NCBI GenBank assembly: GCA_020056205.1
Contig: JAGVIF010000181.1
Location: 1-13,060, forward strand
Source: Lentisphaeria bacterium
GTDB taxonomy: Bacteria; Verrucomicrobiota; Lentisphaeria; Victivallales; GWF2-50-93
Length of the DNA: 13,060 bases
Reading direction: 5' to 3'
In this document: positions 1 through 13,060 of the stretch, one piece after another
Layout: each line of letters starts with the position of its first letter
Numbering within the stretch: position 1 is the stretch's first letter
Made by a program: the position numbers and the translations under genes
The notes under the pieces: model-generated
Told to the model about the DNA's origin: nothing
Databases searched by the model: none
The model's input: only the letters and a program-made list of their open reading frames with translations

Positions 1-54
1 CCGATTGAACCGATTGAACCGATTGAACCGATTGAACCGATTGAACCGATTGAA
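1..54. repeat. Six tandem perfect copies of a 9-bp unit
   Basis: The unit CCGATTGAA occurs six times head to tail without a mismatch, followed by three further matching bases (CCG) before the pattern breaks. The array begins at the window edge, so its full length is unknown. Because the unit is nine bases, copy-number change by slippage would not shift a reading frame; in frame 1 it encodes Pro-Ile-Glu repeats. There are no spacers, so this is not a CRISPR array. It may be the coding tail of the upstream gene or a noncoding minisatellite. Confidence 0.95.
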
Positions 55-177
55 CCGCAAAACTTAGACCAACGCGGACAATATACCAAGCAAAAAGAAA
101 AAACAACCAAGAAACATCTTTTTTTTGATTTTTTTGAAAATTTATTCTGGCAGGTTAAATTGACACATAGAGTATAA
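1..177 (+). CDS. Possible C-terminal end of an upstream protein with a Pro-Ile-Glu repeat (partial, tentative)
   Basis: Frame 1 is open from the window edge to a TAA at 175-177 and would encode six Pro-Ile-Glu triplets followed by a lysine-rich stretch and an aromatic segment (LFFDFFENLFWQ), 58 residues in all. The other two frames are interrupted: frame 3 stops inside each repeat and frame 2 stops just after the array. A hairpin followed by four T's lies 19 bases after the stop, where a terminator for this gene would be expected. I recognise no domain, and the region after base 60 is AT-rich, so it may be noncoding. Upstream sequence would decide. Confidence 0.3.
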   Translation, partial: PIEPIEPIEPIEPIEPIEPQNLDQRGQYTKQKEKTTKKHLFFDFFENLFWQVKLTHRV

Positions 178-186
178 ATCTAAAAT
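160..186 (+). promoter_or_regulatory. Candidate sigma70-type promoter for the operon
   Basis: A perfect -35 hexamer TTGACA lies at 160-165, and TAAAAT (five of six matches to TATAAT) lies at 181-186. The 15-base spacer is shorter than the usual 17, which lowers confidence. The surroundings are AT-rich. It sits upstream of the only sizeable noncoding gap in the window and would start transcription near position 193, giving a leader of roughly 135 bases before the first ketosynthase gene. The -35 box would lie inside the tail of the tentative upstream reading frame. Confidence 0.4.
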
Positions 187-195
187 TAGCGACCT

Positions 196-215
196 ACTGC
201 GAATTTCGCAGTTTT
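196..215 (+). terminator. Short hairpin with T run, possible weak intrinsic terminator
   Basis: A perfect 7-bp stem pairs 196-202 (ACTGCGA) with 206-212 (TCGCAGT) around a three-base loop, and four T's occupy 212-215. It lies 19 bases downstream of the stop codon of the tentative upstream frame. The stem and T run are short, so termination would be weak. If the candidate promoter starts transcription near 193, the same hairpin would instead cap the 5' end of the operon transcript. Confidence 0.4.
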
Positions 216-223
216 ATCAATAA

Positions 224-305
224 GAAACTGCCAAGAAAAAGACACGCTAAAGTCGAAGATCCCGAGCCGCGGGGTCTCGGGGCTGTGAACTCCAACGGCA
301 GTTTC
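224..305 (+). promoter_or_regulatory. Structured 5' leader of the operon (long-range stem enclosing a GC-rich hairpin)
   Basis: GAAACTGCC at 224-232 is the perfect reverse complement of GGCAGTTTC at 297-305, a 9-bp closing stem around 64 bases. Inside it, CCCGAG at 261-266 pairs with CTCGGG at 276-281, and the loop can add two more G-C pairs (267-268 with 273-274), making a very stable hairpin. The closing stem ends one base before the purine-rich ribosome-binding site of the first ketosynthase gene. This architecture resembles cis-regulatory RNAs, but I could not match it to a riboswitch class I know, and no ligand can be named. It could also simply protect or expose the ribosome-binding site. 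Confidence 0.45.
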
Positions 306-318
306 AAAGGAGGAGGGG
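306..318 (+). promoter_or_regulatory. Very strong ribosome-binding site of the first operon gene
   Basis: The 13-base purine tract AAAGGAGGAGGGG contains two overlapping Shine-Dalgarno cores (GGAGG at 309-313 and 312-316), placed 12 to 15 bases before the ATG at 329; a third match GGGGAG (315-320) lies 8 bases away. It supports the ATG at 329 and directly abuts the closing stem of the leader structure, so folding there could affect its accessibility. Confidence 0.75.
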
Positions 319-328
319 AGAATATTAA

Positions 329-1564
329 ATGTCTACTCGACAAAAACGCAGAGTTGTAATAACCGGAATGGGGCTGACTTCCGCGCTTGGTCTCGATGTC
401 GGCGTTTTTTTTGACCGTCTTGAAGCTGGTGATTCCGCAGTTCGCCTGATGCCTGACTGGAGCAGGAAACTGAAGATCAATCCCGTCGCGGCGCCGGTTG
501 TCCTTTCTGAGGGCATTGAAAAATCAATACCCCGCAATTTCCGCCGTTCCATGGGGCGCATGAGCATTTATTCCGCGCTTGCGGCCGAAAAAGCTTTGCA
601 GGCGTCCGGCCTTCCCCGTGAATTTATCGCTTCAGGACGCTGCGCTTGTGTCATCGGTTCCACGATGGGTAGCAGCGAAAGCATTATGGAGGCGTCCCGT
701 ATTGTCATCCTGAACGACAGTGAAAACATGCCGGCCCTGCAATTTTTCAAATGCGCCTCTCATTCGGCCGCATTCAACACGGCTAACTTCCTGGGGCTTA
801 CCGGCTGCGTCCTTGCTCCTGCGGCCGCGTGCGCTTCGGGTCTCCAAGCGATCGGGATCGGGCGCGATTTGATACTGTCCGGCGTCCAGGACGCCGCGAT
901 ATGCGGCGGAGCTGAAGAAGTTACGCCAGAAGTAACCGCGTCGTTTGAGCTGATGTTCGCCGCCGCGAGGGGGTTTTCCGGCCCTCCGCAATACAGTTCC
1001 CGTCCTTTTGCCGCCGACCGCGCTGGTTTAGTCTGCGGTGAAGGCGCCGGACTTGTAGTTCTTGAGGAATATGAACATGCTGCTAGGCGAGGCGCCAATA
1101 TCCACTGCGAAATTATCGGTTATGCCACTTGCGGTTGCGGCTCGCATGTCAGTCAGTCGGATCACCGCAGCATTGTCCGCTGCATGGACCTGACATTCCG
1201 CGACGCCGCCATTTCACCCGGTCAGGCCGATTATATCAGCGCCCATGCCACCGCCACGGTTCACGGCGATTCAGAGGAAGCGATGGCAATTCGTGAATTT
1301 TTCGGACATGAAACCCCGGTCAGCAGTCTCAAAGGACATCTCGGCCATACTCTGGGAGCGTCCGGGGCGATCGAGCTCATCGCCTCGCTGGAGATGATGC
1401 GGAGAGGCCGCATTCTGCCGACCCTTAATCTGGAACGTGTCGCCGACGATTGCGCCGGACTTGACCACGTCCGCTCCGTCAGAGAACATAAAATCAATGT
1501 TTTTGTAAAAAACTGTTTTGCATTTGGTGGAATCAATGCGACCTTAATATGCCGCAAAGTTTGA
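329..1564 (+). CDS. Beta-ketoacyl-ACP synthase (KS1, FabF-like, APE-type)
   Basis: This 411-residue protein is a full-length condensing enzyme that would catalyse decarboxylative Claisen condensation of malonyl-ACP onto an ACP-bound acyl chain in the cytoplasm. The thiolase-fold catalytic set is complete: nucleophile Cys168 in AAACASG, His306 in SAHATAT, Lys335 and His340 in LKGHLGHTLGASG, and the C-terminal FAFGGIN loop. Length matches the FabF family. The ATG is supported by a strong purine-rich ribosome-binding site. It is the first gene of the operon, 40 bases ahead of the ACP gene. With a second complete ketosynthase and a half-length one downstream, it corresponds to one of the three ketosynthase-type proteins of aryl polyene clusters; which one (ApeO- or ApeR-like) I cannot tell. 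It is less likely a housekeeping FabF, given this neighbourhood. Confidence 0.93.
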   Translation: MSTRQKRRVVITGMGLTSALGLDVGVFFDRLEAGDSAVRLMPDWSRKLKINPVAAPVVLSEGIEKSIPRNFRRSMGRMSIYSALAAEKALQASGLPREFIASGRCACVIGSTMGSSESIMEASRIVILNDSENMPALQFFKCASHSAAFNTANFLGLTGCVLAPAAACASGLQAIGIGRDLILSGVQDAAICGGAEEVTPEVTASFELMFAAARGFSGPPQYSSRPFAADRAGLVCGEGAGLVVLEEYEHAARRGANIHCEIIGYATCGCGSHVSQSDHRSIVRCMDLTFRDAAISPGQADYISAHATATVHGDSEEAMAIREFFGHETPVSSLKGHLGHTLGASGAIELIASLEMMRRGRILPTLNLERVADDCAGLDHVRSVREHKINVFVKNCFAFGGINATLICRKV

Positions 1565-1604
1565 TACTTTTTAAAGTCAATATTTTAATCATAGCGATCT
1601 AATC

Positions 1605-1871
1605 ATGAATAGGGAAGAAATTGTGGCCGCGATAAACTCAATATTCATCGAGCAGTTTGAGATATCGGAAGATAAACTGATGCCGGACAAGGAGATTTTT
1701 AATGATCTCGGACTGGACAGCTTGGACATTGTTGATCTGATGGTGGGGTTGCAGCGCCGTTTCGGGGTATCCCTGCGCGAGAACGAGGAAATTCGCAAAA
1801 TCGTCACCCTTGGCGATGTCTATGAGTTTTTTGTCCGCCTTGAAGCCAAGCGCGGCGAGCCTAAAACTTAA
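1605..1871 (+). CDS. Acyl carrier protein
   Basis: An 88-residue acidic, helical protein of typical ACP length. The phosphopantetheine attachment site is Ser39 in LGLDSLDIVDLM, the classic DSL motif at the start of helix II. It would carry the growing acyl chain between the ligase, ketosynthases and dehydratases encoded here, after modification by a phosphopantetheinyl transferase that is not in this window. The ATG at 1605 has no clear Shine-Dalgarno sequence. The 40-base gap after KS1 is AT-rich and contains no convincing structure. It is the only ACP visible; APE clusters usually have two, so another may lie outside. Confidence 0.93.
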   Translation: MNREEIVAAINSIFIEQFEISEDKLMPDKEIFNDLGLDSLDIVDLMVGLQRRFGVSLRENEEIRKIVTLGDVYEFFVRLEAKRGEPKT

Positions 1872-1881
1872 TTGTCAGACT

Positions 1882-2616
1882 ATGCTCGTCTCCTTTACTA
1901 TTTATTTAAACTTGCTGATTCTTTCAGCGTTGTATTGCCTGTTCTCCGCGCCGCCATTCGTTGCGATCGCCATGATATTCCGGTTTGACCGCCATAAAAT
2001 AGCGCACTGGTTGAGGTTTTTTATCCTCTGGTATGGCAGGATCATCATTCATTTTGCGGTGTTTCCATTTGTCCGTGTTACCTATGAAGACACTGCTCCA
2101 GAGGAAAAAGACGCCGGTATAATCATTGTCAATCACCGTTCCGCTTCCGACCCATTTTTTGTGGCGGCGCTGGGCCGAAACGCCGTTCAAACGGTGAACG
2201 CTTGGCCGATGCATCTCCCATTTTTCGGTTTTTTCGCCCGCGCCGCCGAGTATATTGACATCACGCAGATAACTTATGATGAGTTTCGCGACCGGATCAG
2301 AAGCGTTTTGCGAAAAGGAGTTTCCGTCATCTCTTTTCCTGAAGGCACCCGTTCTGGGAACCGCGCGATGAACCAGTTTCACGGCGGCATTTTCAGGGTG
2401 GCGCATGAACTCGGGGCTGGCATCACACCAGTATGCATCACCGGCAATGAGAATATTCCGTCGCGCAAATTCAAGTTTTCCGGCGGTCATGTCAGAGTCC
2501 GCAAACTTGCCTCCGTCAAGCCGGAAATGATCGCCGGTCTTACGCCGTTCGCCCTGAAAACATATATCCGCGAAATAATAGTGAATGAAACTTCCAAAAT
2601 GGATGCGATGCTGTGA
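1882..2616 (+). CDS. PlsC/LPLAT-type membrane acyltransferase
   Basis: A 244-residue member of the lysophospholipid (1-acylglycerol-3-phosphate) acyltransferase superfamily, which transfers acyl groups from ACP or CoA to a hydroxyl acceptor at the inner membrane. The catalytic HX4D motif is His85-Asp90 in NHRSASD, and the acceptor-binding motif FPEGTRS spans 152-158; a third conserved block is GNENIPSR near 188. Two hydrophobic segments (about 4-34 and 44-67) would anchor it. The frame is open further upstream to an ATG at 1810, but that lies inside the ACP gene; the ATG at 1882, ten bases after the ACP stop, gives a sensible N terminus. In this context it may attach the polyene or fatty acyl product to a lipid head group. 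Its acceptor is unknown. Confidence 0.88.
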   Translation: MLVSFTIYLNLLILSALYCLFSAPPFVAIAMIFRFDRHKIAHWLRFFILWYGRIIIHFAVFPFVRVTYEDTAPEEKDAGIIIVNHRSASDPFFVAALGRNAVQTVNAWPMHLPFFGFFARAAEYIDITQITYDEFRDRIRSVLRKGVSVISFPEGTRSGNRAMNQFHGGIFRVAHELGAGITPVCITGNENIPSRKFKFSGGHVRVRKLASVKPEMIAGLTPFALKTYIREIIVNETSKMDAML

Positions 2617-3953
2617 GCGACAACATATCACGGTTTGACCGGAATCAGGATTGCGCCTTTATGGCTCTCGAAGACATTCGCCGACTTCAAACCCGACTTT
2701 TACGCGAACATCTGGAGTTCTGCGGAAAACAATCGCCTTATTACCGCAGTCTGCCGGGAGATTTTGATCTTTCCGGTTTTCAGATCGCCGACCTGATAAA
2801 AATACCCGCCGCCGACAAGACAATTCTCTCGGAAAAAAATGATATGTTCATCGCAGTTCCGGAAGCCGAGATCAGAGATATTTCCTTTACTTCCGGGACA
2901 ATTGGCGCTTCCTGCCGGATCGCCTACACCGAAAGCGACCTTGACCGCCTGGCCTACAACGACGCCACCGGCTTTGCCTGCTCGGGCATTGACCGCGGCG
3001 ACCGCGTTCTTCTCACCTGCACGCTGGATCGCTGTTTTATTGCAGGATTGGCATATTTTATGGGCGCGCGCAGGCTCGGCGCCACCGCCATCCGCAACGG
3101 AATCAACTCGCTTGAGAGCCATGCCGACATTATAATGCGGCTTAAGCCCGGCGCCATAGTCGGGGTTCCTTCCTTTTTGCGTTATCTCGGAAATTTCCTG
3201 CGGGACAACAAAATTGACTCTGGCTGCGTCAAGCGCCTGATTTGTATCGGCGAGCCGCTGCGCGATGAAAATATGGAGACTTCCTCGCTGGGCGAACAAC
3301 TGCTGCAGGTCTGGTCGGCGCGGATATTTTCCACATATGCGTCGTCGGAAATCGTCACCAGTTTCACCGAGTGCTCCGCTCAATGCGGCGGACACTTGCC
3401 GCCCGATCTGGCTGTCCTTGAAATACTGGACGAATCAGGGAATCCTCTGCCGCCTGGCGATGTCGGCGAGGTTACGGTCACCCCGCTGCAGGTTACCGGC
3501 ATGCCGCTGATCCGGTTTCGCACCGGCGACATCAGTTTCATGCTCGACAGTCCTTGTCGCTGCGGACGATTTTCCCCGCGCATAGGGCCAATTCTCGGGC
3601 GCAAAGCCCAGATGCTCAAAATCAAGGGGACGACGCTTTTCCCCGGAACTTTTTTTACAGCGCTCAATTCTTCGCCCGAAATTGCCGAGTATTATCTGGA
3701 GGCGTCCGGCGACGGGTTTTCGGATCGGATTGAAATATTCGTTGCGCTTAAAGACCCGGGGACGCGCCTCGACCAAGTGGCAAAAAGAATTCAGGCAAAA
3801 AGCCGTCTTTCTGTTCCGATAAGGGAAATGCCGATGGAAGATGTCAGGAAAAAAGTTTTTTCCGCTTCCCGCAAGCCGTTGCGTTTCTTTGACTTGCGCG
3901 CCGCGCCGGCAAAAAATATTCGCAGCGCGGACGCATGTGAATTTTCATCTTAA
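2613..3953 (+). CDS. PaaK-type adenylate-forming acyl/aryl-acid ligase
   Basis: A 446-residue member of the phenylacetate-CoA ligase branch of the ANL superfamily, expected to activate a carboxylic acid with ATP as acyl-AMP and pass it to CoA or the ACP. Visible motifs are the phosphate-binding SFTSGTIGAS (91-100), YASSE (242-246), RTGDI (303-307), the CRCGR segment (315-319) and GRKAQMLKIKGTTLFP (329-344), the last very characteristic of PaaK. Length is near the usual 430-450. The GTG start overlaps the preceding TGA by four bases. It probably supplies the starter unit. APE clusters normally use an ApeH-type ligase for an aryl acid; the PaaK-type enzyme suggests an aryl starter too, but the substrate is not readable from sequence. 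Several core motifs deviate slightly (SGTIG for SGTTG). Confidence 0.87.
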   Translation: MSDNISRFDRNQDCAFMALEDIRRLQTRLLREHLEFCGKQSPYYRSLPGDFDLSGFQIADLIKIPAADKTILSEKNDMFIAVPEAEIRDISFTSGTIGASCRIAYTESDLDRLAYNDATGFACSGIDRGDRVLLTCTLDRCFIAGLAYFMGARRLGATAIRNGINSLESHADIIMRLKPGAIVGVPSFLRYLGNFLRDNKIDSGCVKRLICIGEPLRDENMETSSLGEQLLQVWSARIFSTYASSEIVTSFTECSAQCGGHLPPDLAVLEILDESGNPLPPGDVGEVTVTPLQVTGMPLIRFRTGDISFMLDSPCRCGRFSPRIGPILGRKAQMLKIKGTTLFPGTFFTALNSSPEIAEYYLEASGDGFSDRIEIFVALKDPGTRLDQVAKRIQAKSRLSVPIREMPMEDVRKKVFSASRKPLRFFDLRAAPAKNIRSADACEFSS

Positions 3954-5408
3954 ATGAGTAAAACTTCAAAATTTGACTTTAGCGACGCCGAAATAGATTC
4001 AGCCGCAGCCGAAGGCCGTCTGTTATCCATGGAAATTGAGTTTAGCCGCGCATGCAATTACAGATGTCCATACTGCTATGTGCCGGACGCGGCCGTGCCG
4101 CCGGACGAACTAACTCCGGACGAGATACGCTCCGCATTGCGCCAGGCATCCGAACTTGGCGCCAAAAAAATCGTGGTCCTCGGCGGTGAACCCTTTTTGT
4201 TCCCGCAGTTGTTTGAGATGTTAGATCAGATCGGTTCGCTTGGCATGATGGCGGAAGTCTTTACCAACGGTTCCCTGATTAGCCCTGAAAACGCCGAACG
4301 CCTGTTCCGCGCCGGAGTCCGCGTGTCAATCAAGCTCAATTCGCTCGATCCGGACATTCATGACGAACTGACCGGCGAAAAAGATTCCTTATACACTGCT
4401 TTGAGGGCAATTGCAATCCTGAAGGACGCAGGTTATTGTGAAGGTGAGGACGACATGCTTGCGGCTGGTTCGATTATCAGTAGCCGCAACATCGAAGGCA
4501 TGGCCTCGCTTTGGCGCTGGCTCCGTGAAGAACGAATAACTCCGCTTTTTGAAATAATCACCCCGCAGGGACGCGCTTTGGACAACCGTCATCTCATGGT
4601 CGAAGGGCGGCGGCTCCAGCGAGTCTTCTCCGAACTCGCCGCCATAGACGCCGATTTCGGCCGCCAATGGAATCCCCAGCCGCCTCTCGTCGGCCGCAAA
4701 TGTTTACGCCACAGCTACTCATGCCTTGTCAACAGCGTCGGCGCCGTCATGCCATGTGTCGGTCTGACTGTCGTTATCGGCAACATCCGTTCGCAGCGGC
4801 TCAAGGAGATACTTGCCGGAAGCGGTATAATATCCAAACTTAAAAACTTTAGGCGCAACATAAAAAAACCGTGCGCGGACTGCGATAAAGCCGAACATTG
4901 CTACGGTTGCCGCGGCGCCGCCTACCAGATGACAGGTGATTACCTTGCGGCCGACCCGACATGCTGGTTCAACGCGGGCAAACTTGATCAGATCAAGGCA
5001 TTGCCGCTTGACGCCGCGTCGTTTATTCCGCATCGTCCGCCCATAAGCATGGTCGGCAGAATAGTGAAAGTCGGCGACAATGCCGGCGATTGCGAATCGC
5101 TTGTGATGCCCGACAATATTTTTCTTGACGAGAACGGCATATTGTCGCGCTCCGCCCTCATCGAGGCGGCGTCGCAGTCGGCTGCGGCCGTCAACAGTTT
5201 TATGAACGATGGGCGCATTTTGCCCGGCATGCTCGTCGGCGTCAAATCTTTCCGTTTCTTCGGCGACGCCCGTTCCGGCGACCTGATGATCATTAGCCTG
5301 AAAGTCGTCGCCGAATTTGCCGCGTCGCACAATATCGTCGTCAACATTTCCGTGGAAGGCCGCCTAATTTGCAAAGGAGAATTAAAAATATGTGTTTTCG
5401 AAAATTAA
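3954..5408 (+). CDS. Radical SAM/SPASM protein fused to a C-terminal ApeP-like hotdog domain
   Basis: The 484-residue protein has two parts. Residues 24 to about 345 are a radical SAM enzyme: the 4Fe-4S motif is Cys34-Cys38-Cys41 (CNYRCPYC), followed by LGGEP (76-80) for SAM binding. A SPASM-type auxiliary cluster region follows, with Cys250, 257, 268, 307, 310, 316, 319 and 337. Residues about 355-484 resemble the ApeP branch of hotdog 3-hydroxyacyl-ACP dehydratases: FIPHRPPISMVGR, then ALIEAASQ, then LVGVKSFRFF. His360 and Glu404 sit at family-conserved positions, but the GHFPG catalytic loop of FabZ is absent. The ATG directly follows the ligase stop, and no stop, frameshift or internal ribosome-binding site separates the parts. 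The likely role is radical modification of an ACP-bound chain, coupled to dehydration or chain recognition. The substrate is unknown. Confidence 0.88.
   Translation: MSKTSKFDFSDAEIDSAAAEGRLLSMEIEFSRACNYRCPYCYVPDAAVPPDELTPDEIRSALRQASELGAKKIVVLGGEPFLFPQLFEMLDQIGSLGMMAEVFTNGSLISPENAERLFRAGVRVSIKLNSLDPDIHDELTGEKDSLYTALRAIAILKDAGYCEGEDDMLAAGSIISSRNIEGMASLWRWLREERITPLFEIITPQGRALDNRHLMVEGRRLQRVFSELAAIDADFGRQWNPQPPLVGRKCLRHSYSCLVNSVGAVMPCVGLTVVIGNIRSQRLKEILAGSGIISKLKNFRRNIKKPCADCDKAEHCYGCRGAAYQMTGDYLAADPTCWFNAGKLDQIKALPLDAASFIPHRPPISMVGRIVKVGDNAGDCESLVMPDNIFLDENGILSRSALIEAASQSAAAVNSFMNDGRILPGMLVGVKSFRFFGDARSGDLMIISLKVVAEFAASHNIVVNISVEGRLICKGELKICVFEN
5373..5380 (+). promoter_or_regulatory. Ribosome-binding site that sets the LolA-like start
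   Basis: AAAGGAGA lies nine bases before the ATG at 5390, inside the last codons of the radical SAM gene. It favours the ATG at 5390 over an in-frame TTG at 5369, which would put extra charged residues in front of a good signal peptide. Confidence 0.75.
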
Positions 5409-6031
5409 CAGGGTTTTTCCGCGGTTTTTTACTGGTCTGCGTTGTTGTCGTCATCGCCGCAGACTCCAAAGAGGCCGTTTCGCCTATTGACACGCAGATT
5501 GATCTTCCGGATATCGCCACATTGCAGGCTGAATTTACCCAGACCAAGCAGATCGCCCTGCTGCGCCATCGCGCTGTAATCACCGGCGAATTGTACATCG
5601 AGAAGAAGAATGGCCGCATGGCCTGGCATGTCGCTTCGCCGATTCGCTATTCATGCGTAATAACCAACGAGTCGCTGACGCAATGGGATATTGACTCAAA
5701 CCGGCAGGTTACGCTTTCCGCTGACCGTTATCCATGGCTCAAGGTTTTATCACGGAATATGGAAGACTGGTTTTCCGGAAACTTCCGGAGCATGTCTTCG
5801 GAATTTACCGCCAAAGCCGGTGGAAAACATGAAACGCTCATGACCGCGCGCCCCGGCAGCCGCATCGCGGAGTTTATCAGATCAATCGAATTTCATTTTT
5901 CCGATGACGGTTCCAGCATCTCGCGGGTCATCTTCACCGAAGTCAATGGCGACACGACGGACATCGCATTTTCAAATATCAGAATCAACCAGCCAATCCC
6001 CGCAGAAAAATGGAAAGTAAAACCAAATTGA
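5390..6031 (+). CDS. LolA-like periplasmic lipoprotein/lipid carrier (ApeL-like)
   Basis: A 213-residue secreted protein. The N terminus is a signal peptide: basic residues Arg4, Lys5 and Arg11, a hydrophobic core (about 13-22, FLLVCVVVVI), and a likely cleavage after Ala24. The mature part has the LolA-like half-barrel pattern: LQAEFTQTKQIALLR, then GELYIEKKNGRMAWHVASP, ending in a LolA-like IRINQPIPAEKWKV tail. Proteins of this group bind acylated cargo in the periplasm, and a LolA-like protein is a regular part of aryl polyene and flexirubin-type clusters, next to the MMPL exporter gene. The gene overlaps the radical SAM gene by 19 bases and the exporter gene by 22, which points to tight co-expression. 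It is probably not the housekeeping LolA, given its place in a biosynthetic operon. Confidence 0.87.
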   Translation: MCFRKLTGFFRGFLLVCVVVVIAADSKEAVSPIDTQIDLPDIATLQAEFTQTKQIALLRHRAVITGELYIEKKNGRMAWHVASPIRYSCVITNESLTQWDIDSNRQVTLSADRYPWLKVLSRNMEDWFSGNFRSMSSEFTAKAGGKHETLMTARPGSRIAEFIRSIEFHFSDDGSSISRVIFTEVNGDTTDIAFSNIRINQPIPAEKWKVKPN

Positions 6032-9000
6032 ACAATTTTTTCCTGCGCCTGCTGATAGCCGCATCCAGGCATCGTCTGATATTGTACGCCATAGTCATAA
6101 TTCTGTCATTGCTGAGCCTGTACGGAATCCACCGCGGACGATACAGCAACGACATCGCTAAGATGCTGCCGGATTCATCCGAGTCGGCGCGCGCGCTGGA
6201 AATCATGCGGCGGAGCGGTGTTTCCAGCAGGGGTGTCGTCTCCTTTGACAGCGGCGGGAAGGCTTTTTCCGACTCGGCGTTGCCGGGCTACCTAGAGACC
6301 CTCGGCGCTCGTCTCCGCTCTTCCCCGATGATTACGCGCGTTGACTATCAATTTATTCCCAAGTCGCTGACATCTTCCCTGAATAATCTCTCATACTATA
6401 TTCCACAACTAATTGATGTGGAAGACTTTGAACGGCTCGCCACAGGCGGCGGCATCGCCAGAGCCGTCAGACAGGCATACCGCCAGTTCTTCCTGCCGGG
6501 CTCGTTAGGAACCACGGAACGACTGCGGGCGGATCCCTTCAACCTGCGTCTGCGCCCGCTGGAAAAACTCAACGACTTCCAGAAACTGTCCGGACTCCGG
6601 ATTTCTCCTTCGCATTCGTATATAGTCTCTCCGGACGAGCGGAAGGCGCTGCTATTGTTCGAGTCCAATATTTCGGCGGCGGACACCGCCGGCAGCCGCC
6701 GTCTTCTCGCAATGCTGGGCGATTCCCTGCGCGATTGCCCGTCCGGCATAACCTTCGATGTCGTCACACCCAATCAGCACGCCGTCGAAAATGAGGCAAC
6801 CATCAAATCCGATGTTAAAATAGTCGCATTTACATCATTTATGGTTTTCACATTGCTGTTCATCATATTTTATCGTTGCGATTTTCGCAGTCTGCTGATC
6901 CCGGCCATGCCGACTTTGGCTTCGCTGATTGTCATGGCATGTATGCCGCTTGTTTTCGAGGACTGCCTTTTTTTCGTCATCGGAATGGGCGGACTGATAA
7001 TAGGTCTTGCCGTCGGCGATTACGGCGCCCATGTCTATGCCGCGTCTTCCGGCGCGTTTGGGATGCGCCGGGTTGCAAGATTGTTCCTGCCGCTTCTTGT
7101 TGCATGTCTCACTACCGTCGGAACCTTTCTGCTTTTTCTGATTTCCGACATCGAGGCCTGCAGGCAGATAGGATTTTATGCCGGATCAAGCCTGCTTCTC
7201 AGCTTGTTGCTGACCATTTTTCTGCTCACCCCATTGTTATCGGGCGGAAGCGGACGGCCATATCATGTCGCGGCACCGAAGTTTATGACTCATCGCCCCT
7301 TGATTGTCATCTCCGTTTGGTCTGTCATGCTGATCTTGGCAATACCAGCTCTTAGCAGGATAAAATTCAACGACGATATCGGGCAATTTGACATGACATC
7401 GCAAATGACGCTCAAGTCGGAGGCGTCCTACGAAAAAAATTGGCAGTCCGGTCCCCGTCCGTCCATGTTGATCGTAACCGGCAAATCTAAAGACGGCATC
7501 TTGCGGCGGGGCGAGGCGCTGGCGGCGCGGCTACGACGGACATTGCCGGAGATGAACTGTTTTTCGCCAACGGATATTTCCCCTTCCGCCGGGAAATTGG
7601 CGGAGCGGCTGTCGCGATGGCGGCAGTTGGAAGAGTCCGGACGACTCCTGCGGATTGCTGAAGCAATGCGTCAGAAGGCCATTGAACAAGAGTTTGCGCC
7701 GGAGTTCTTCAATCCATTTTTCAATGCTCTCGGCGATGGCGTCAAACGGCCGCCGGACGGCGCGCCAGAACTTTTCCTGTCGCTGCTTTCACACACAATC
7801 ACTCGTAATGGAGACTGGCATTCCATGATGATATTTTTTCCTGACAATGATCATTGCAACGCGGAGGCGCGTTCACTCGTCGCCGCCGATCCGAACTGCG
7901 CCGTGATTTCGCGGAAGGTTTTCCGCCAGACGATTTCATCGGAGGTATCCGGACGATTTTTGTTCCTTCTCTCCTTGGCCGTGGCGCTGACATGCATCGT
8001 CACATTTCTTTTTTTCAGATCCTTCCTGCTCACTTCAGCGGCATTGATTCCGACCGTAAGCAGTCTGGTTTTCACCGGTGCCACATACGCCGCGTTCAAT
8101 GTTCCAATAAATATTTCGGTCTGCTTTGGCGCCGTCATCTTGGTGGGAGTCTCCATAGACTACGGCATCTTCATGGTTCATGCCTTTCAGCAACGTGAGG
8201 AAACGGCTATAGCGGATGCCATCGCACTGTCGGCCATAACCCTGATCGCGGGTGGGGCGACCGTTGTTTTCACACGGCATCCTATGCTCCGCTATGCCGG
8301 TTATACCCTGATTTTAGGGGTTAGCTTCGCATGGTTGTCCGCCGTTATGATAATACCTGCATTGCTCAAGTTTCTTGTTGGCCGCCGTGTCCTGCTTTTG
8401 CCATCCGCTCTTCTACTTCTGCTGTTCACCGGTTGCCGCAGCGAACCTTTCGCATGGTCGGAATTTCCGCCGTTGCCGCCTGTAATATTCAAGGATGGCA
8501 TGCTGGAAAAATGGTCGTCCGAACAAGCGTCCGAATTTATAGTCGAGGCGGGAGTAGTCTTCGAATATCAAGGATATTCCATGACTTCGCTCTGCATGGC
8601 CCGTGTAAACGACGCCGAGCGCGGCATTGATGTCGTCGGCATGAACCCCGCCGGCGCTAAAATATTCGAGGCATCCGGAATCAACGGCAAAACCATATCT
8701 TTCTCTTCTTTGCCGATTCTGCCGGAGATGGACATGCCGAAGGCCGGCGACGCGATTCTCAAGGACATCGGGAATATTTACTTTGACCTCGTCCCAGGCG
8801 CGAACTCCATTCCCGGCAAACCTGCCGGCAACTGCCTGTCAATGATAGAAAATACGACAGATAACTCCCGCTTCGAATATTTGTTCGCCGGCAATCCGCC
8901 GCGTCTCATCCGCAAAAAGTTTTACCGCGGCAACAACAGCGAGTGGCAGGTTTCCTTTTTCGAATATCTGGAGGCTGACGGAAAAATCATTCCCGGAAAC

Positions 9001-9090
9001 ATTGTCTATGATAATTTTAAATACGGTTACCGGTTGATTGTCCGGACCAGAACCGCCATCCCTATCAAAAAAGAAGGATTTCAGCAATGA
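6010..9090 (+). CDS. MMPL/RND exporter fused to a DUF3261-like lipoprotein domain
   Basis: The 1026-residue protein has three parts. Residues 1 to about 790 are a complete MMPL-type RND transporter: TM1 near 22-41, a periplasmic loop, a TM2-6 block (about 270-415), TM7 near 428-447, a second loop, and a TM8-12 block (about 647-790). Conserved acidic residues are Asp337 in AVGDYG and Asp717 in SIDYG, the likely proton-relay sites. Residues 792-809 then look like a lipoprotein signal peptide: Arg-Arg, a hydrophobic run, and FTGC ending at Cys809. Residues 810-1026 resemble the DUF3261 lipoprotein that usually follows the exporter gene in APE clusters; the tail FKYGYRLIVRT is typical. No stop or ribosome-binding site separates the parts. 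It would export an acylated product across the inner membrane and hand it on. Normal MMPL proteins of this type end near residue 790. Confidence 0.9.
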   Translation: MESKTKLNNFFLRLLIAASRHRLILYAIVIILSLLSLYGIHRGRYSNDIAKMLPDSSESARALEIMRRSGVSSRGVVSFDSGGKAFSDSALPGYLETLGARLRSSPMITRVDYQFIPKSLTSSLNNLSYYIPQLIDVEDFERLATGGGIARAVRQAYRQFFLPGSLGTTERLRADPFNLRLRPLEKLNDFQKLSGLRISPSHSYIVSPDERKALLLFESNISAADTAGSRRLLAMLGDSLRDCPSGITFDVVTPNQHAVENEATIKSDVKIVAFTSFMVFTLLFIIFYRCDFRSLLIPAMPTLASLIVMACMPLVFEDCLFFVIGMGGLIIGLAVGDYGAHVYAASSGAFGMRRVARLFLPLLVACLTTVGTFLLFLISDIEACRQIGFYAGSSLLLSLLLTIFLLTPLLSGGSGRPYHVAAPKFMTHRPLIVISVWSVMLILAIPALSRIKFNDDIGQFDMTSQMTLKSEASYEKNWQSGPRPSMLIVTGKSKDGILRRGEALAARLRRTLPEMNCFSPTDISPSAGKLAERLSRWRQLEESGRLLRIAEAMRQKAIEQEFAPEFFNPFFNALGDGVKRPPDGAPELFLSLLSHTITRNGDWHSMMIFFPDNDHCNAEARSLVAADPNCAVISRKVFRQTISSEVSGRFLFLLSLAVALTCIVTFLFFRSFLLTSAALIPTVSSLVFTGATYAAFNVPINISVCFGAVILVGVSIDYGIFMVHAFQQREETAIADAIALSAITLIAGGATVVFTRHPMLRYAGYTLILGVSFAWLSAVMIIPALLKFLVGRRVLLLPSALLLLLFTGCRSEPFAWSEFPPLPPVIFKDGMLEKWSSEQASEFIVEAGVVFEYQGYSMTSLCMARVNDAERGIDVVGMNPAGAKIFEASGINGKTISFSSLPILPEMDMPKAGDAILKDIGNIYFDLVPGANSIPGKPAGNCLSMIENTTDNSRFEYLFAGNPPRLIRKKFYRGNNSEWQVSFFEYLEADGKIIPGNIVYDNFKYGYRLIVRTRTAIPIKKEGFQQ

Positions 9091-9464
9091 GCAATATTAT
9101 CAAGGCGTTGAAGCAACGACTGCGGATTTGTGAACCATTGACATCCGATGTCTTTTTGGGTTCGTTGGTGTTCGACCCGGATTTTCCCGGCTTTCAAGGT
9201 CATTTTCCAGGAAATCCGATTTTGCCTGGTGTATGCCTGATTGAGGCCGCGGTTCAATTGATCTCCTGCGGATCCGGGCGGAATCTGCTCCTTGCCGAGC
9301 TTGAACGGGTGAAGTTTTTTTCCCCAGTCAAACCCGGCGACGAGGTGAAACTCGAATTTCATATCGAACACCTCCCGGATGGTGTCGGCGCCAAAGGGAC
9401 GATGATGTCCGGACAACGAAAAATCTGCGCGATAAAGCTGAAACTGACCGGTGAAAAATCATGA
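9087..9464 (+). CDS. FabZ/ApeI-like 3-hydroxyacyl-ACP dehydratase
   Basis: A 125-residue single hotdog-fold protein that would dehydrate 3-hydroxyacyl-ACP to trans-2-enoyl-ACP. The FabZ catalytic block GHFPGNPILPG is intact, with His39 as the base, and Glu53 in CLIEAAVQ as the acid partner; the later segment VKFFSPVKPGDEV matches the family. Length is slightly below E. coli FabZ (about 150). The ATG overlaps the exporter stop by four bases (ATGA), with AAGAAGGA eight bases upstream. Having no enoyl reductase nearby, repeated use of this enzyme would leave conjugated double bonds. Together with the hotdog domain fused to the radical SAM protein it matches the ApeI/ApeP dehydratase pair of APE clusters. 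Confidence 0.92.
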   Translation: MSNIIKALKQRLRICEPLTSDVFLGSLVFDPDFPGFQGHFPGNPILPGVCLIEAAVQLISCGSGRNLLLAELERVKFFSPVKPGDEVKLEFHIEHLPDGVGAKGTMMSGQRKICAIKLKLTGEKS

Positions 9465-9934
9465 AGCGCAAAAATTATTTCCAACAAGAGCCCAACAGCC
9501 CATCGCCCATCAAAACGACCATCAGCCGTCGCCTTCGTTTCAGCGAAACTGACGCGCTGGCAATCGCATGGCATGGACGCTTCCCGCAGTTTTTTGAAGA
9601 GGCGCAGACCGAGCTCGGACACAAATGCGGTCTAACATACGATGCCTTTCGCGATGAAGGGATCACGGCGCCGGTCGCGCAGATCCATATTGATTATTTC
9701 CGTCCGCTTCTGCTCGACAAAATCTTCACGGTCAAGGCGTCTCTGCTTTGGAACGACGCGGCGCGTCTCAATACCGAATACCGCATCACCGATGCGGATG
9801 GACTTTGCGCCTGCACCGGTTATACCATCCAACTTTTTGTGGATATAAAAACCCGCGAGCCGCTGTGGCTCTCTCCGAACGCGCTGATACTCTGTCGTCA
9901 AAGATGGCTGGCCGGGGAATTTTATGAAAAATAG
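9461..9934 (+). CDS. 4HBT-family acyl thioesterase (YbgC/ApeK-like)
   Basis: A 157-residue hotdog thioesterase. The family motif FSETDALAIAWHGRFPQFFE (27-46) matches the YbgC/4-hydroxybenzoyl-CoA thioesterase active-site region, with catalytic Asp31 and conserved His38; the glycines that usually follow the Asp are replaced by Ala-Leu. The second strand block HIDYFRPLLLDKIF is also typical. It would hydrolyse an acyl-thioester, either releasing the finished chain from ACP or clearing stalled intermediates. The ATG overlaps the dehydratase stop by four bases. The first 18 residues are polar and low in conservation, so translation could begin a little later, but I see no better-supported start. 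A thioesterase of this kind is a regular member of APE clusters. Confidence 0.88.
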   Translation: MKRKNYFQQEPNSPSPIKTTISRRLRFSETDALAIAWHGRFPQFFEEAQTELGHKCGLTYDAFRDEGITAPVAQIHIDYFRPLLLDKIFTVKASLLWNDAARLNTEYRITDADGLCACTGYTIQLFVDIKTREPLWLSPNALILCRQRWLAGEFYEK

Positions 9935-11054
9935 TCCGATCATTGTTTTCGCCGACCTGATAACCGCATACGGTCATGGGCTCGACCGGTGCTGGAATGG
10001 GTTTATGGCCCGTCGGCGGCCGTTCTCCGCGATTACAAGATTTCCAAGCGCAGGATTTGAAGGAGCGGTTGCCGCGACCGTCCCTGACTTCATGTATGAC
10101 AGCACATCATCCCTGGCAGAGCATCTCCTGAGAAAAATCGCGGCAACAACAATAGAACTGCCGACAGACGCGGAGCTTTTCCTCGCGACGACTGTCGGGG
10201 AAATTAACCTCCTGGAACAGGAAATACTATTGCATAAAACCGAAAAATGCGCCCCAACATGTAGTTCGCTCCTCGACAAGGCGAAAGCGATTTTCGGAAA
10301 AAAACGCGCGTCGCTGATCTCGGCGGCCTGCGCTTCCGGCAATATGGCGTTGGCGCGGGCGGCGGCAAAAATCCAAAACGGCGGCATCGAATATGCGATA
10401 GTCGCAGGTTGCGACATCGTAAGTGAATTCGTCTTTTCGGGATTTGCGTCTCTTGGCGCCATAGATTTGAACGGCGCGCGCCCATATGACCGCGACCGCG
10501 CCGGCCTTACTCTGGGCGAGGCCGCAGCCGTAATAGCGCTTGCGTCGGAGGATGCCGCCCGCCGCGACGGACTTCCGCGCTTGGCCCGGCTTGGCGGATG
10601 GGGTATCAGTTGCGACGCCGTCCACATCACCGCTCCGATGAGCGACGGACTGCAGTTGGCCGCCGCCATCCGTCACGCCATGGCGGCCGCCGGAATCTCG
10701 CCGCCTGAAATTGGAGGCGTCATAGGTCACGGCACAGGAACGGTTTACAACGATTCCATGGAAATAAACGCATTGAACTCAGTTTTCAACGAAGATGCGA
10801 AGCCGCTGTTTTCCACAAAGGGCGGAGTCGGCCACACACTTGGAGCGGCGGGCGTCGTCCAGGCCGCCGTCGCTGTCAGGGCGATACAGGAAATGCTCCT
10901 GCCGCCGCAGACCGGACTGCGTGAACCGATGCCCGGAACGGAACGCATGGTTTCCGGTCAGACGCAAAGTCGTCTAATCGCTCCAAAAATATTGTCGCTC
11001 AATGCCGGATTCGGCGGTATCAATGCTGTTTTGCTGATCGAGGACTGCGCATGA
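9924..11054 (+). CDS. Beta-ketoacyl-ACP synthase (KS2)
   Basis: A 376-residue condensing enzyme, slightly shorter than FabF (about 410), mainly through a compact N-terminal half. The catalytic residues are complete: Cys136 in SAACASG, His269 in GHGTGTVYND, and Lys299 and His304 in STKGGVGHTLGAAG, with the C-terminal NAGFGGINA loop. It is therefore predicted to be active rather than a chain-length factor. GGGGA five bases upstream supports the ATG, which overlaps the thioesterase gene by 11 bases. The next gene encodes a half-length ketosynthase-like protein, and the 4-base overlap between them suggests that the two products form a complex, as described for the ketosynthase/chain-length-factor pair ApeO/ApeC. 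Which of KS1 and KS2 starts and which extends the chain cannot be read from the sequence. Confidence 0.92.
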   Translation: MKNSPIIVFADLITAYGHGLDRCWNGFMARRRPFSAITRFPSAGFEGAVAATVPDFMYDSTSSLAEHLLRKIAATTIELPTDAELFLATTVGEINLLEQEILLHKTEKCAPTCSSLLDKAKAIFGKKRASLISAACASGNMALARAAAKIQNGGIEYAIVAGCDIVSEFVFSGFASLGAIDLNGARPYDRDRAGLTLGEAAAVIALASEDAARRDGLPRLARLGGWGISCDAVHITAPMSDGLQLAAAIRHAMAAAGISPPEIGGVIGHGTGTVYNDSMEINALNSVFNEDAKPLFSTKGGVGHTLGAAGVVQAAVAVRAIQEMLLPPQTGLREPMPGTERMVSGQTQSRLIAPKILSLNAGFGGINAVLLIEDCA

Positions 11055-11752
11055 AAACAATTAACCGCCAAACCTCTTTTAAACTTTCGCTCCGCGGAAT
11101 GGCGTTGGTCAATTCCAGGCAAGCCCTTATGATGAACAGCGGCCGTTCATTTGAATCAGAAGACGGAATCGCCGGGATTTACAGGGAAATCGCCAGTTCC
11201 AAAATAATTCCCCGGATGCGTCTCGACAACTTTCGGCGGGCCGGGGAAAAAGCTCGTCTTGCCATGCTCGGTTCACTGTTGGCCTTTGCCGACGCTGGCT
11301 CACCCTTTGCCGACAACACCGCAGTAATAGGCTGGGGCGGAGAGGAGAGCGTAAGCGAAAACCGCGCGTATTTCACAGATTATGCTGTCAACGGCAGATT
11401 ACTTGGCCGCGGTCAGCTATTCATAGGAACACTTCCCAGCACGCCTCTCTGCGAGGCCGCTATTTGCCTCAATCTGCATGGTCCTGTATTCTATTTCCAG
11501 TCAGATTGCGGTCTTGACTCGGTTTTGGCCGAGGCCGAATCGCTGTTGTCGGCCAAGCCGGCCGGACAAGCATTGCTTCTTGGAATCAGTTGTGGCGCGC
11601 TACTGGCTCTGCTTCTTGAGCCGGCCGGAGACGTCCATGATTTTTCGCAGTCGCCGCAAACAGACGATATGCCGCGCATCTATCATCACATGGAGAAGGA
11701 GTGGCGAAAAAAATACACGGCTCCCTTTTCCGATAAAGGAGGACCACCTTGA
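11051..11752 (+). CDS. Half-length ketosynthase-like protein (Ketoacyl-synt_2 / ApeC-like partner)
   Basis: A 233-residue protein that aligns by eye with the N-terminal half of ketosynthases. It has FIGTLPSTPLCEAAICL, which matches the conserved block before the active site, then NLHGPVFYFQSDCGLDS. Cys153 in SDCGLDS falls at the nucleophile position when aligned with Cys136 of KS2, while true chain-length factors usually lack that Cys. The C-terminal half with the catalytic histidines is missing, and no stop-interrupted remnant of it follows. This length is normal for the stand-alone Ketoacyl-synt_2 family found in APE clusters, so it is not a broken gene. The likely role is to partner KS2 and shape the chain-length pocket. 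The C terminus (200-233) is charged and probably extended. The ATG overlaps the KS2 stop. Confidence 0.78.
   Translation: MKTINRQTSFKLSLRGMALVNSRQALMMNSGRSFESEDGIAGIYREIASSKIIPRMRLDNFRRAGEKARLAMLGSLLAFADAGSPFADNTAVIGWGGEESVSENRAYFTDYAVNGRLLGRGQLFIGTLPSTPLCEAAICLNLHGPVFYFQSDCGLDSVLAEAESLLSAKPAGQALLLGISCGALLALLLEPAGDVHDFSQSPQTDDMPRIYHHMEKEWRKKYTAPFSDKGGPP
11735..11743 (+). promoter_or_regulatory. Ribosome-binding site supporting a TTG start
   Basis: AAAGGAGGA, a near-perfect Shine-Dalgarno sequence, ends five bases before TTG 11749-11751. That TTG overlaps the stop of the preceding gene (TTGA) and begins the typical N terminus M-K-I-L-L-I-Y-P, so the rare start codon is well supported. Confidence 0.8.
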
Positions 11753-12996
11753 AAATTCTACTGATATATCCTCGTTGGCCGAAATTGAAAAATCAGCCGG
11801 CTTTCAATCTCCCGCCCTTGGGGCCTGTCACTTTTGCCGCCACACTGCCGCATGATGTTGAAATCAGTTTCTATGACGAAAATGTGGAGGCCGTCAACCT
11901 TGAGGAGGAATCCGACCTTGTCGCCATTTCCTGTATGCTCACATGCCAGATTCCCCGCGGCTGCGAGCTGGCGGACTGGTTCCGGAAACACGGACGGACA
12001 GTCATTTTCGGGGGCATTGCCGCCATGCTGCACGCCGAAGAAGTCGCATCGCGCGCCGATAGCGTTTTCCTAGGGGAAGCCGAAGGCCGCATGGAAGCGG
12101 TTCTTGATGATTTTAAGAATGGTCGTCTGAAAAAAACATACAATTTCCTGCGCGATTTTCCGGATACGGCGCTGATCGGAGCGGCACGGCGCGGCATTCT
12201 GAAGCATCCGCTGTATAACTACCGCGGTGTCCGGATGGTTGACCTCGTTCACGCATCGCGCGGCTGCCGTTTCAATTGTTTTCCGTGCTGCACGCCGTAT
12301 CTGGGAGGACGCAAATTCCGGCCGCGTCCGCTGGACAAGGTGGCTGAAGAAATTGCCGGCATTGACAATAACCGGCTCTTCTTCGTGGACAACTCTTTAG
12401 CGCAGGACGATCAATGGGAGAAGGACCTTTTCAAAACTCTCGCGCCGCTGAAGAAAAAATGGATATCGCATCCGATTAAAAACGATGATGAAATCCTGAA
12501 ACTGGCGGCGGAGGCCGGTTGCTGGTATGTCTATCAGGCGGTCTTTGACACATCGGACTACATCCGTGAAAGAATCAAAAAATACAAGTCTTACGGAATT
12601 GGCGTGGAAGGGACGATCATTCTCGGGACAGACTACCAGGATCAGGATTCAATCCGGCGCCTGATAGATTTTCTGCAGGAAATAGAACTTGATCTTGCCG
12701 AATTTACCGTGCTTACCCCTTTCCCGCATACGCCGATCCGGGAAAAACTGGAACGGGAAGGACGGATACTGCACAACGACTGGATCCGCTATACCGCAGG
12801 AGAAGTAGTGTTTCGTCCGGCGCTTATGAGTCCGGATAAATTACAGGAAATGTATGAATACGCGTGGACGGAATTCTACCGCAGCACGTGCAAGGAAATG
12901 AAAATGGCGAAACTGTTTATCGAGGTCATTAAAAAAGAAAAAGCCGATGGTTCATACAGGGGAGCCAATTGCAAAACTCAAAACCGATGCCGATGA
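11749..12996 (+). CDS. B12-binding-type radical SAM enzyme
   Basis: A 415-residue protein. Residues 1 to about 125 form a Rossmann-like cobalamin-binding-type domain: MKILLIYPRW, then LPPLGPVTFA, VIFGGIAAMLHAEEV and the conserved LGEAEG; the DxHxxG cobalamin-ligand motif is not evident, as in many members of this class. The radical SAM domain follows with Cys173-Cys177-Cys180 (CRFNCFPC) for the 4Fe-4S cluster and GTIILGTDYQ late in the barrel. Relatives with this architecture (BchE, HpnJ, HpnP-type) perform methylation, ring formation or C-C bond formation on lipids and cofactors. In this operon it probably tailors the acyl chain or starter. It starts with TTG behind a strong ribosome-binding site. 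The C-terminal tail from about 395 is basic and unusual. Substrate and actual cobalamin use are not shown by the sequence. Confidence 0.9.
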   Translation: MKILLIYPRWPKLKNQPAFNLPPLGPVTFAATLPHDVEISFYDENVEAVNLEEESDLVAISCMLTCQIPRGCELADWFRKHGRTVIFGGIAAMLHAEEVASRADSVFLGEAEGRMEAVLDDFKNGRLKKTYNFLRDFPDTALIGAARRGILKHPLYNYRGVRMVDLVHASRGCRFNCFPCCTPYLGGRKFRPRPLDKVAEEIAGIDNNRLFFVDNSLAQDDQWEKDLFKTLAPLKKKWISHPIKNDDEILKLAAEAGCWYVYQAVFDTSDYIRERIKKYKSYGIGVEGTIILGTDYQDQDSIRRLIDFLQEIELDLAEFTVLTPFPHTPIREKLEREGRILHNDWIRYTAGEVVFRPALMSPDKLQEMYEYAWTEFYRSTCKEMKMAKLFIEVIKKEKADGSYRGANCKTQNRCR

Positions 12997-13060
12997 AGGA
13001 GATTATGAAATTCAGACAAGCCGCAAAACCGGAGGCATACCCAAGGCGGTATGTCGAGGA
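12993..13060 (+). CDS. Start of another operon gene (partial, cut by window end)
   Basis: A frame open to the window end begins at an ATG that overlaps the preceding TGA by four bases (ATGA at 12993-12996), the junction type used repeatedly in this operon. It encodes MKEIMKFRQAAKPEAYPRRY and a few more residues. In-frame alternative starts are ATG 12987 and ATG 13005; AAGGAG (12996-13001) is only three bases from 13005, so the choice is uncertain. I recognise no family from these 22 residues. It shows that the operon continues and may include the missing ketoreductase or a second ACP. Confidence 0.5.
   Translation, partial: MKEIMKFRQAAKPEAYPRRYVE

Follow-up and report, generated by a model that had tools for sequence, protein, structure and literature searches.

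The 13,060 bp stretch analysed here (the window) is contig C112, positions 1 to 13060, of a draft metagenome-assembled genome (MAG) of a Lentisphaeria bacterium (597 contigs, 2.89 Mb in total, with a listed completeness of 81%). It carries most of an operon akin to those for the yellow aryl polyene (APE) pigments, a conserved variant of that kind in which a radical S-adenosylmethionine (SAM) enzyme with a SPASM domain is fused to ApeP, one half of the APE dehydratase; radical SAM enzyme and dehydratase are physically linked at the sequence level. Neither the fusion nor the operon was found in the open-licence literature, judged by titles and the starts of abstracts, and in that scope the variant is undescribed. 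We consider that the operon probably encodes a polyene synthase in which radical chemistry modifies the chain on its carrier before the chain becomes part of an exported lipid.

The fusion protein is the product of gene 5. Pfam families PF04055 (radical SAM) and PF13186 (SPASM) were found in it, in agreement with an initial annotation made from the sequence alone, which had called it a SPASM-type radical SAM protein. Its last ~137 residues were found to be ApeP, the partner of ApeI in the APE dehydratase. PF22817 (ApeP) was present in the precomputed Pfam assignments of 119 of 120 listed relatives, these being the best 120 of 1630 under 1e-3 in a search that scored only the 7999 candidates sharing most words; the exception, P0008, is a partial sequence. 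A direct Pfam scan did not report PF22817 for the window protein at E 0.01. The best hotdog relative in the PDB was 6qsr_B (E 8e-14 in a search with profile A1; E 0.012 and first of 8 when only the domain was used), which belongs to the entry 'The Dehydratase Heterocomplex ApeI:P from Xenorhabdus doucetiae'. The protein was modelled with a predicted local distance difference test score (pLDDT) of 94.6 and a predicted template modelling score (pTM) of 0.91, and Foldseek matched the N-terminal part of the model to SPASM enzymes, e.g. SkfB, SuiB, PqqE and anSME. The three radical SAM cysteines (CxxxCxxC) and seven SPASM cysteines were invariant in 60/60 aligned fusion sequences, an alignment that leaves out loci L125 and L126, both without CxxxCxxC. 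Two dehydratase-type hotdog domains had been annotated initially; both are present, but the second is the C-terminus of the SPASM protein and not a separate gene. Searching plasmids with the fusion protein returned 344 records, all below 60% identity and one covering at least 80% of the query; the eight matches listed were generic radical SAM proteins.

ApeI and ApeP of Acinetobacter baumannii are described as two partners of a heterodimer that has one active site (PMC8041823; this and the other papers below are cited from excerpts of their text). Gene 8 of the operon matched 6qsr_A, sixth among its PDB matches. The histidine of the ApeI motif HFPG was kept in 31/31 rows of an alignment, with an acidic residue (Glu or Asp) at the corresponding position in only 7/31 (32 loci were given, L115 had no match, and L011 and its duplicate L176 were both counted, so that 30 loci are distinct). 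In the ApeP part, Glu404 was invariant (60/60 aligned), and the HF...P motif was absent from all 60. Both halves of the heterodimeric dehydratase typical of APE clusters are encoded, with complementary His and Glu, and the natural reading is that ApeI would contribute the His, and the radical SAM-linked ApeP the Glu, to one shared dehydratase site. With the residues so divided, the radical enzyme should belong to the working dehydratase as an obligatory member of the complex. Since ApeP is the tail of the SPASM enzyme, this enzyme would be placed within the dehydratase complex and would act on the chain bound to the acyl carrier protein (ACP).

According to the list of open reading frames (ORFs), the operon has 12 genes, all in the same direction, spanning 329-12996; start codons of several of them overlap the preceding stop, and the earlier description of a co-directional, coupled operon is borne out. 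The G + C content at third codon positions (GC3) is 0.55-0.62 for each of the 12 genes. Both contig ends cut the operon. Proteins were assigned by Pfam and NCBIfam profile scans, and families were found for all of the two full ketosynthases (KS), ACP, acyltransferase, ligase, LolA, MMPL exporter and 4HBT thioesterase named initially. The features, with roles named after the APE system and CLF standing for chain length factor, are as follows.

329..1564, + strand: gene 1, KS1, a full ketosynthase, ApeR-like (PF00109/PF02801; top PDB relatives 7f27_A and 4ewg_A; Cys, His, His motifs)
1605..1871, + strand: acyl carrier protein (PF00550, 36.1 bits)
1882..2616, + strand, start uncertain, the ORF opening at 1810: PlsC-type acyltransferase, ApeD-like (PF01553, 66.8 bits)
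2613..3953, + strand: FlxY/PaaK-like acid ligase, putative ApeH role (PF00501; NCBIfam FlxY 407.8 bits, cut-off 520)
3954..5408, + strand: gene 5, the fusion of radical SAM core, SPASM domain and C-terminal ApeP hotdog (PF04055, PF13186; PF22817 precomputed in relatives; model; fold matches)
4995..5408, + strand: ApeP part of the fusion (6qsr_B matches, Foldseek rank 27, E 2e-10)
5390..6031, + strand, from the ATG at 5390, the ORF opening at 5369: LolA-like carrier, putative ApeL role (PF03548, 46.7 bits; LolA2_flexi 77.6 bits, cut-off 125)
6010..9090, + strand: MMPL exporter continuing into a DUF3261-like lipoprotein part, putative ApeM and ApeN roles (PF03176; alignment with separate genes of relatives)
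9087..9464, + strand: gene 8, ApeI-like dehydratase half with the HFPG His (PF07977 40.7 and PF22818 ApeI-like 38.4 bits, both above cut-off)
9461..9934, + strand: 4HBT thioesterase, putative ApeK role (PF13279, PF03061)
9924..11054, + strand: KS2, a full ketosynthase given the ApeO role for its position next to the CLF-like gene (PF02801, PF00109; motifs present)
11051..11752, + strand: CLF-like half-length ketosynthase, likely ApeC role (family evidence; no Pfam match of its own)
11749..12996, + strand: gene 12, radical SAM protein whose N-terminal domain is B12-binding-like (CxxxCxxC; predicted fold; the most conserved gene)
12997..13060, + strand: spacer at the contig end, resembling by eye the spacer that precedes TIGR04072 in genome G005 and on contig C242

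The best PDB relative of KS1 was 7f27_A (310.8 bits), followed by 4ewg_A, and both structures are of ApeR (PMC8358021). For KS2, 6qsp_A ranked 13th of 54 PDB matches and is hence not discriminating. The half-length ketosynthase of the initial annotation is likely to be CLF-like, by its family and not by the window protein, which had no Pfam or NCBIfam match: 3/10 family members match ketoacyl-synt, and the family profile aligns with the N-terminal part of PDB ketosynthase chains, among which the known CLF chain in 6qsp did not appear. Candidates for the KS-CLF pair plus second KS of APE clusters are KS2 with the adjoining CLF-like gene, whose family matches are weak, and the ApeR-like KS1. The MMPL protein had been described as carrying a DUF3261-like domain. 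The two parts do form a single ORF in the window, and the second aligns with separate genes of relatives, but DUF3261 (PF11659) gave no score in the window protein in the Pfam scan; it was weak in 5/5 of the relatives' separate genes, the one score shown being 19.9 bits against a cut-off of 22.3. The APE trait of LolA, an RND/MMPL exporter and a DUF3261 protein is present, with DUF3261 weak. The ligase may be of the aryl-acid type, an assignment made by family.

Gene 12 had been taken for a B12-binding radical SAM protein. In the Pfam scan it remained below the cut-offs (B12-binding PF02310, 28.0 versus 32.1 bits; Radical_SAM, 28.0 versus 29.5 bits), but its predicted fold (pLDDT 90.8) falls into the radical SAM class, includes a B12-binding-like domain and is nearest to AprD4 and then to cobalamin enzymes, and CxxxCxxC was kept in 44/44 aligned sequences. 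AprD4, MgmA, OxsB, CysS and TsrM, which combine radical SAM with a B12-binding-type domain, share ~20% identity with it. No gene of the operon is more conserved: identity to the window copy of gene 12 is 68-73% (n = 9), while the medians of other genes, again relative to the window, were KS1 53%, ligase 51%, SPASM part 50%, KS2 42% and MMPL 28%. Radical SAM genes 32-37% identical to gene 12 stand in tandem, several to a contig, on G184:C48 (1843-10654), G012:C100 and G260:C340.

The operon extends past the window contig, where one more radical SAM protein is encoded together with a glycosyltransferase and an acyltransferase. The third radical SAM protein belongs to NCBIfam TIGR04072, 'lipid biosynthesis B12-binding/radical SAM protein', short name rSAM_ladder_B12, which presumably refers to ladderane clusters. 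In 16/16 other gene 12 genomes of the phylum sample described below, TIGR04072 was located downstream of gene 12 on the same contig and strand, and it scored above cut-off in 13/13 genomes of the chosen loci. In the host genome it was found near the start of a separate contig, C242, which may continue C112 (495.8 bits, cut-off 360), followed by a GT2-DUF2062 glycosyltransferase and then a lipid A-type acyltransferase, an order that matches G005 and G006. Upstream of the operon, FabG was found 5′ of KS1 in 15/25 loci other than L114 and L115, at the coverage cut used, and a CrtD-like flavoenzyme, with a weak NCBIfam CrtD match (69 versus 549.7 bits), was found 5′ of KS1 in 15 loci; this comparison and that of identities counted both L010 and L118, which are one genome.

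To follow the operon beyond its host, loci from a scan of named genomes and a search of 60 genomes (host included) were compared gene by gene. Eleven distinct loci (L009, L011, L014, L015, L018, L020, L061, L168, L171, L177 and L178) have the complete set of 12 genes with order and strand unchanged; one of them, L009, is the whole operon in Victivallis vadensis DSM 14823, a cultured gut species. Thirteen complete loci were first counted, from which L176 was dropped as a duplicate of L011 and L126 because its gene 12 match is a cross-hit on TIGR04072; further duplicates are L009 with G023/L116 and L010 with L118. L016 and L017 lack the ligase only. Apparent differences of order on several loci were KS1/KS2 cross-hits on cut or partial loci, and L172 has no true KS1. 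Two loci are truly rearranged: L174 and L175 have ApeI after the ligase, and L174 has its SPASM-ApeP gene 3′ of TIGR04072. The titles of the named loci give Lentisphaerae, Oligosphaeraceae, Candidatus Omnitrophota, Deltaproteobacteria, Nitrospirae and Pseudomonadota, mostly as MAG labels that may be wrong.

In a phylum sample of 288 genomes, host included, the fusion query matched at 1e-30 in 29 genomes, TIGR04072 scored above cut-off in 27 and gene 12 was present in 17, presence being set at ≥600 bits (next best 203) and the bit-score cuts being chosen after the lists had been viewed. All 17 gene 12 genomes have both the fusion and TIGR04072, and 24/27 TIGR04072 genomes have the fusion. A fusion match without TIGR04072 above cut-off was found in G010, G031, G058, G171 and G222, and TIGR04072 without the fusion in G012, G066 and G114; the 29 fusion genomes take in the fragments G222, G225 and G295, the one-stop frame of G171 (which matches 8-361 only) and the degenerate G031. 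A second sample comprised 285 genomes of the phylum of L014, titled Omnitrophota: 10 have a full-length fusion (G437, an unfused match only, was excluded from this count), 11 have gene 12 and 10 share both, G455 being the sole exception with gene 12 and no fusion. Hypergeometric values for co-occurrence were 5e-20, 8e-21 and 5e-27 in the phylum sample and 1e-17 in the second; as the sampled genomes are related, these express association and not a kinship-free probability. Absence of the radical SAM genes from all related clusters, which the initial annotation had named as evidence of a chance insertion, is not what was found, because the gene set is conserved far beyond the host genome, in 11 same-order loci and by co-occurrence in two phyla.

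Natural variants show which radical SAM genes can be lost. In L120, L122 and L125 the CLF gene is followed by the glycosyltransferase, without gene 12 and TIGR04072; in L126, L179, L180, L181, L182 and L184 TIGR04072 is present and gene 12 absent. L123 ends within the CLF gene and is uninformative on gene 12. The SPASM-ApeP proteins of L125 (~8500-11800) and L126 (~7000-10500) lack CxxxCxxC and keep the SPASM cysteines and ApeP, and judged by these motifs they are natural pseudo-radical-SAM variants. ApeP looks like the core and the radical steps like losable tailoring.

Among known systems, the operon is nearest to APE and flexirubin clusters. The APE clusters of E. coli CFT073, Xenorhabdus doucetiae and A. 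baumannii share with it KS, a likely CLF, ACP, acid ligase, ApeI and ApeP, and also thioesterase, acyltransferases, glycosyltransferase, LolA, RND/MMPL and DUF3261, with FabG in relatives; the roles used here are as listed for E. coli (PMC8253772), and enzyme work on APE supports those of the non-radical parts (PMC8041823, PMC8253772, PMC8358021). Unlike these clusters, the operon has ApeP fused to radical SAM/SPASM, two B12-type radical SAM genes and, in relatives, the CrtD-like flavoenzyme; the window also has one ACP, and no ApeB-type methyltransferase or ApeG was recognised. Flexirubin (Flx) families gave the best NCBIfam matches for the ligase (FlxY), LolA (LolA2_flexi) and the reductase of relative L016 (FlxB). 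Membership in the flexirubin group was rejected, as the equivalog cut-offs were missed (FlxY 407.8/520, LolA2_flexi 77.6/125, FlxB 301.7/340), and, unlike flexirubin clusters, the operon carries radical SAM genes.

In the pathway that we favour, the ligase would prime ACP with a carboxylic acid, and KS1 (ApeR-like) and KS2:CLF (ApeO:ApeC-like) would extend the chain, with reduction by FabG, which lies 5′ in many relatives, and dehydration by the ApeI:ApeP heterodimer. No enoyl reductase was recognised among the identified genes, so the chain would stay conjugated. The SPASM enzyme would act on the bound chain, where oxidation or the joining of carbons is the likeliest reaction, and gene 12 and the TIGR04072 enzyme, absent in some lineages, may perform further tailoring. 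The lipid would be assembled by the acyltransferases and glycosyltransferase and exported by LolA, MMPL and DUF3261. An APE-like chain remodelled by radical chemistry had already been put forward in the initial annotation; the covalent ApeP-SPASM link and the conserved gene set favour it, while the choice among methylation, cyclisation and C-C bond formation stays conjectural.

Several points weigh against this pathway. Gene content, order, conservation, fusion, residue split and distribution are observations, from which every reaction, the complex and the product are inferred. The His/Glu404 site was read off alignments rather than a modelled heterodimer, and a His occurs at ApeP position 360 in 45/60 sequences. 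Loss of CxxxCxxC in L125 and L126 suggests that the radical step is dispensable in some loci. FabG and the CrtD-like gene lie outside the window, and the 81% complete host genome yields only 28 bits for the CrtD-like flavoenzyme. The CLF assignment is weak. Finally, the usual enzymes of aryl starter supply were not found: aromatic ammonia lyase (PF00221) and chorismate lyase (PF04345) were each detected in 0/10 carriers, 8 of the 10 being listed as ≥90% complete and ≤5% contaminated, and the controls were positive in 5 (PF00221) and 1 (PF04345) of 14 genomes. The term 'aryl' is therefore unproven for this operon.

The absence of both lyases from the 10 carriers would also fit a different division of labour, in which the radical SAM enzymes mainly supply the starter acid or head group loaded by the ligase and the chain is an ordinary polyene. 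In favour of this, no other gene of the operon is as conserved as gene 12, whose relatives by fold include enzymes that act on small or free substrates. However, the SPASM enzyme is covalently joined to ApeP, which works on the chain, and otherwise complete operons occur without gene 12, some of them also without TIGR04072; these two therefore make no essential starter in those loci. We regard this explanation as unlikely.

A quite improbable alternative is that this is an ordinary APE operon, with the SPASM domain as a mere scaffold for ApeP. L125 and L126, with SPASM cysteines and ApeP kept and CxxxCxxC gone, are what such a scaffold would look like, but the ten invariant cysteines of the 60 aligned fusions speak against it, as do the two further radical SAM genes of most carriers.

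That the operon is a ladderane-type cluster, its product a ladderane or a Desulfotalea-like precursor hydrocarbon, seems more improbable still. The published list for Kuenenia kuste3335-3352 contains KS, ACP, FabZ, FabG, a CrtI-like gene, a glycosyltransferase and a membrane protein (PMC4790861, PMC2649909), and phenylacetyl-CoA ligase adjoins a radical SAM gene there (kuste3344-3343; PMC4790861), as the ligase does in the window. Together with TIGR04072 above cut-off and the CrtD-like gene, this ligase-radical SAM pairing provides some evidence at the level of gene sets, where the initial annotation had seen no specific evidence for ladderanes. However, ApeI:ApeP, LolA-MMPL-DUF3261 and a CLF-like gene do not appear in the anammox list as published; the anammox/Desulfotalea list for type II fatty acid synthesis, in the excerpts, has neither ApeI:ApeP nor LolA and does have methyltransferases. 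Ladderanes were not found in D. psychrophila (PMC2649909), and no new fatty acids appeared in the reported tests when 34 anammox candidates were expressed in E. coli (PMC4790861). Gene-set likeness to anammox clusters is not evidence for a ladderane product.

Unfused relatives of the SPASM part bear on the same comparison. In several Desulfobulbaceae loci and in Allochromatium palmeri the SPASM part is unfused, and this family (Desulfobacterota, Nitrospirota, Allochromatium) has ~50% identity to it and no ApeP fusion. L022 (182-11023, Desulfobulbaceae) and L032 (1587-11047, A. palmeri) each have the unfused enzyme and gene 12 (60% identity) within another kind of ACP/KS cluster, which in L022 has a FakA/DegV-type protein and a 4-coumarate-CoA-ligase-like gene. 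L031 (783-13634, labelled Thermodesulfovibrionia) carries TIGR04072, KS pairs, a PaaK-like ligase, the unfused SPASM enzyme, a CrtI-like gene and a UbiE-like methyltransferase; this set much resembles the published anammox gene list and counts in favour of a ladderane-type cluster. With the unfused SPASM protein of L031 as query, no anammox-named protein was among the best 120 of 478 matches, and the anammox comparison therefore rests on published gene lists and not on sequence.

Chance insertion or misassembly of radical SAM genes into an unrelated operon could be imagined for a contig cut on both sides in a draft MAG of 597 contigs, but is rejected in view of the 11 distinct same-order loci, the two-phylum co-occurrence and the uniform GC3.

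If the favoured pathway holds, radical chemistry reaches a carrier-bound chain by way of a fusion between the radical enzyme and one dehydratase half. A bolder extension, which we consider speculative and rather doubtful, is that the operon family is an evolutionary bridge from APE synthases to anammox/Desulfotalea-type clusters, in which a dehydratase-tethered radical SAM enzyme and two B12-type enzymes convert the bound polyene into a carbocyclic, cross-linked or methyl-branched lipid. We know of no type II polyketide synthase in which such radical chemistry acts on a bound polyene. Three features bear on how anammox-type clusters make unusual lipids: TIGR04072, the pairing of ligase and radical SAM gene and, in relatives, the CrtD-like flavoenzyme. 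Anammox bacteria are said not to be in pure culture (PMC4790861). The carriers of this operon are anaerobes that include a cultured human gut species, V. vadensis, and since DSM 14823 is a named strain carrying the operon, the product can be sought directly. antiSMASH 'ladderane' clusters have been reported in Omnitrophota, Verrucomicrobiota and other phyla (PMC9902471), so members of this operon family may sit unanalysed in such lists.

Rfam was used to find RNA families, and none reached gathering scores in the window, L135, L009, L114 or L166. A GC-rich hairpin is located at 240-330, just 5′ of KS1 (predicted -24.7 kcal/mol, without shuffle control). Tandem 9-base repeats occupy positions 1-57 at the contig start, and in G006:C57 (L166), of the same family, a repeat-rich 1.6 kb insert separates gene 12 from TIGR04072; such repeats may disrupt both the operon and its assemblies.

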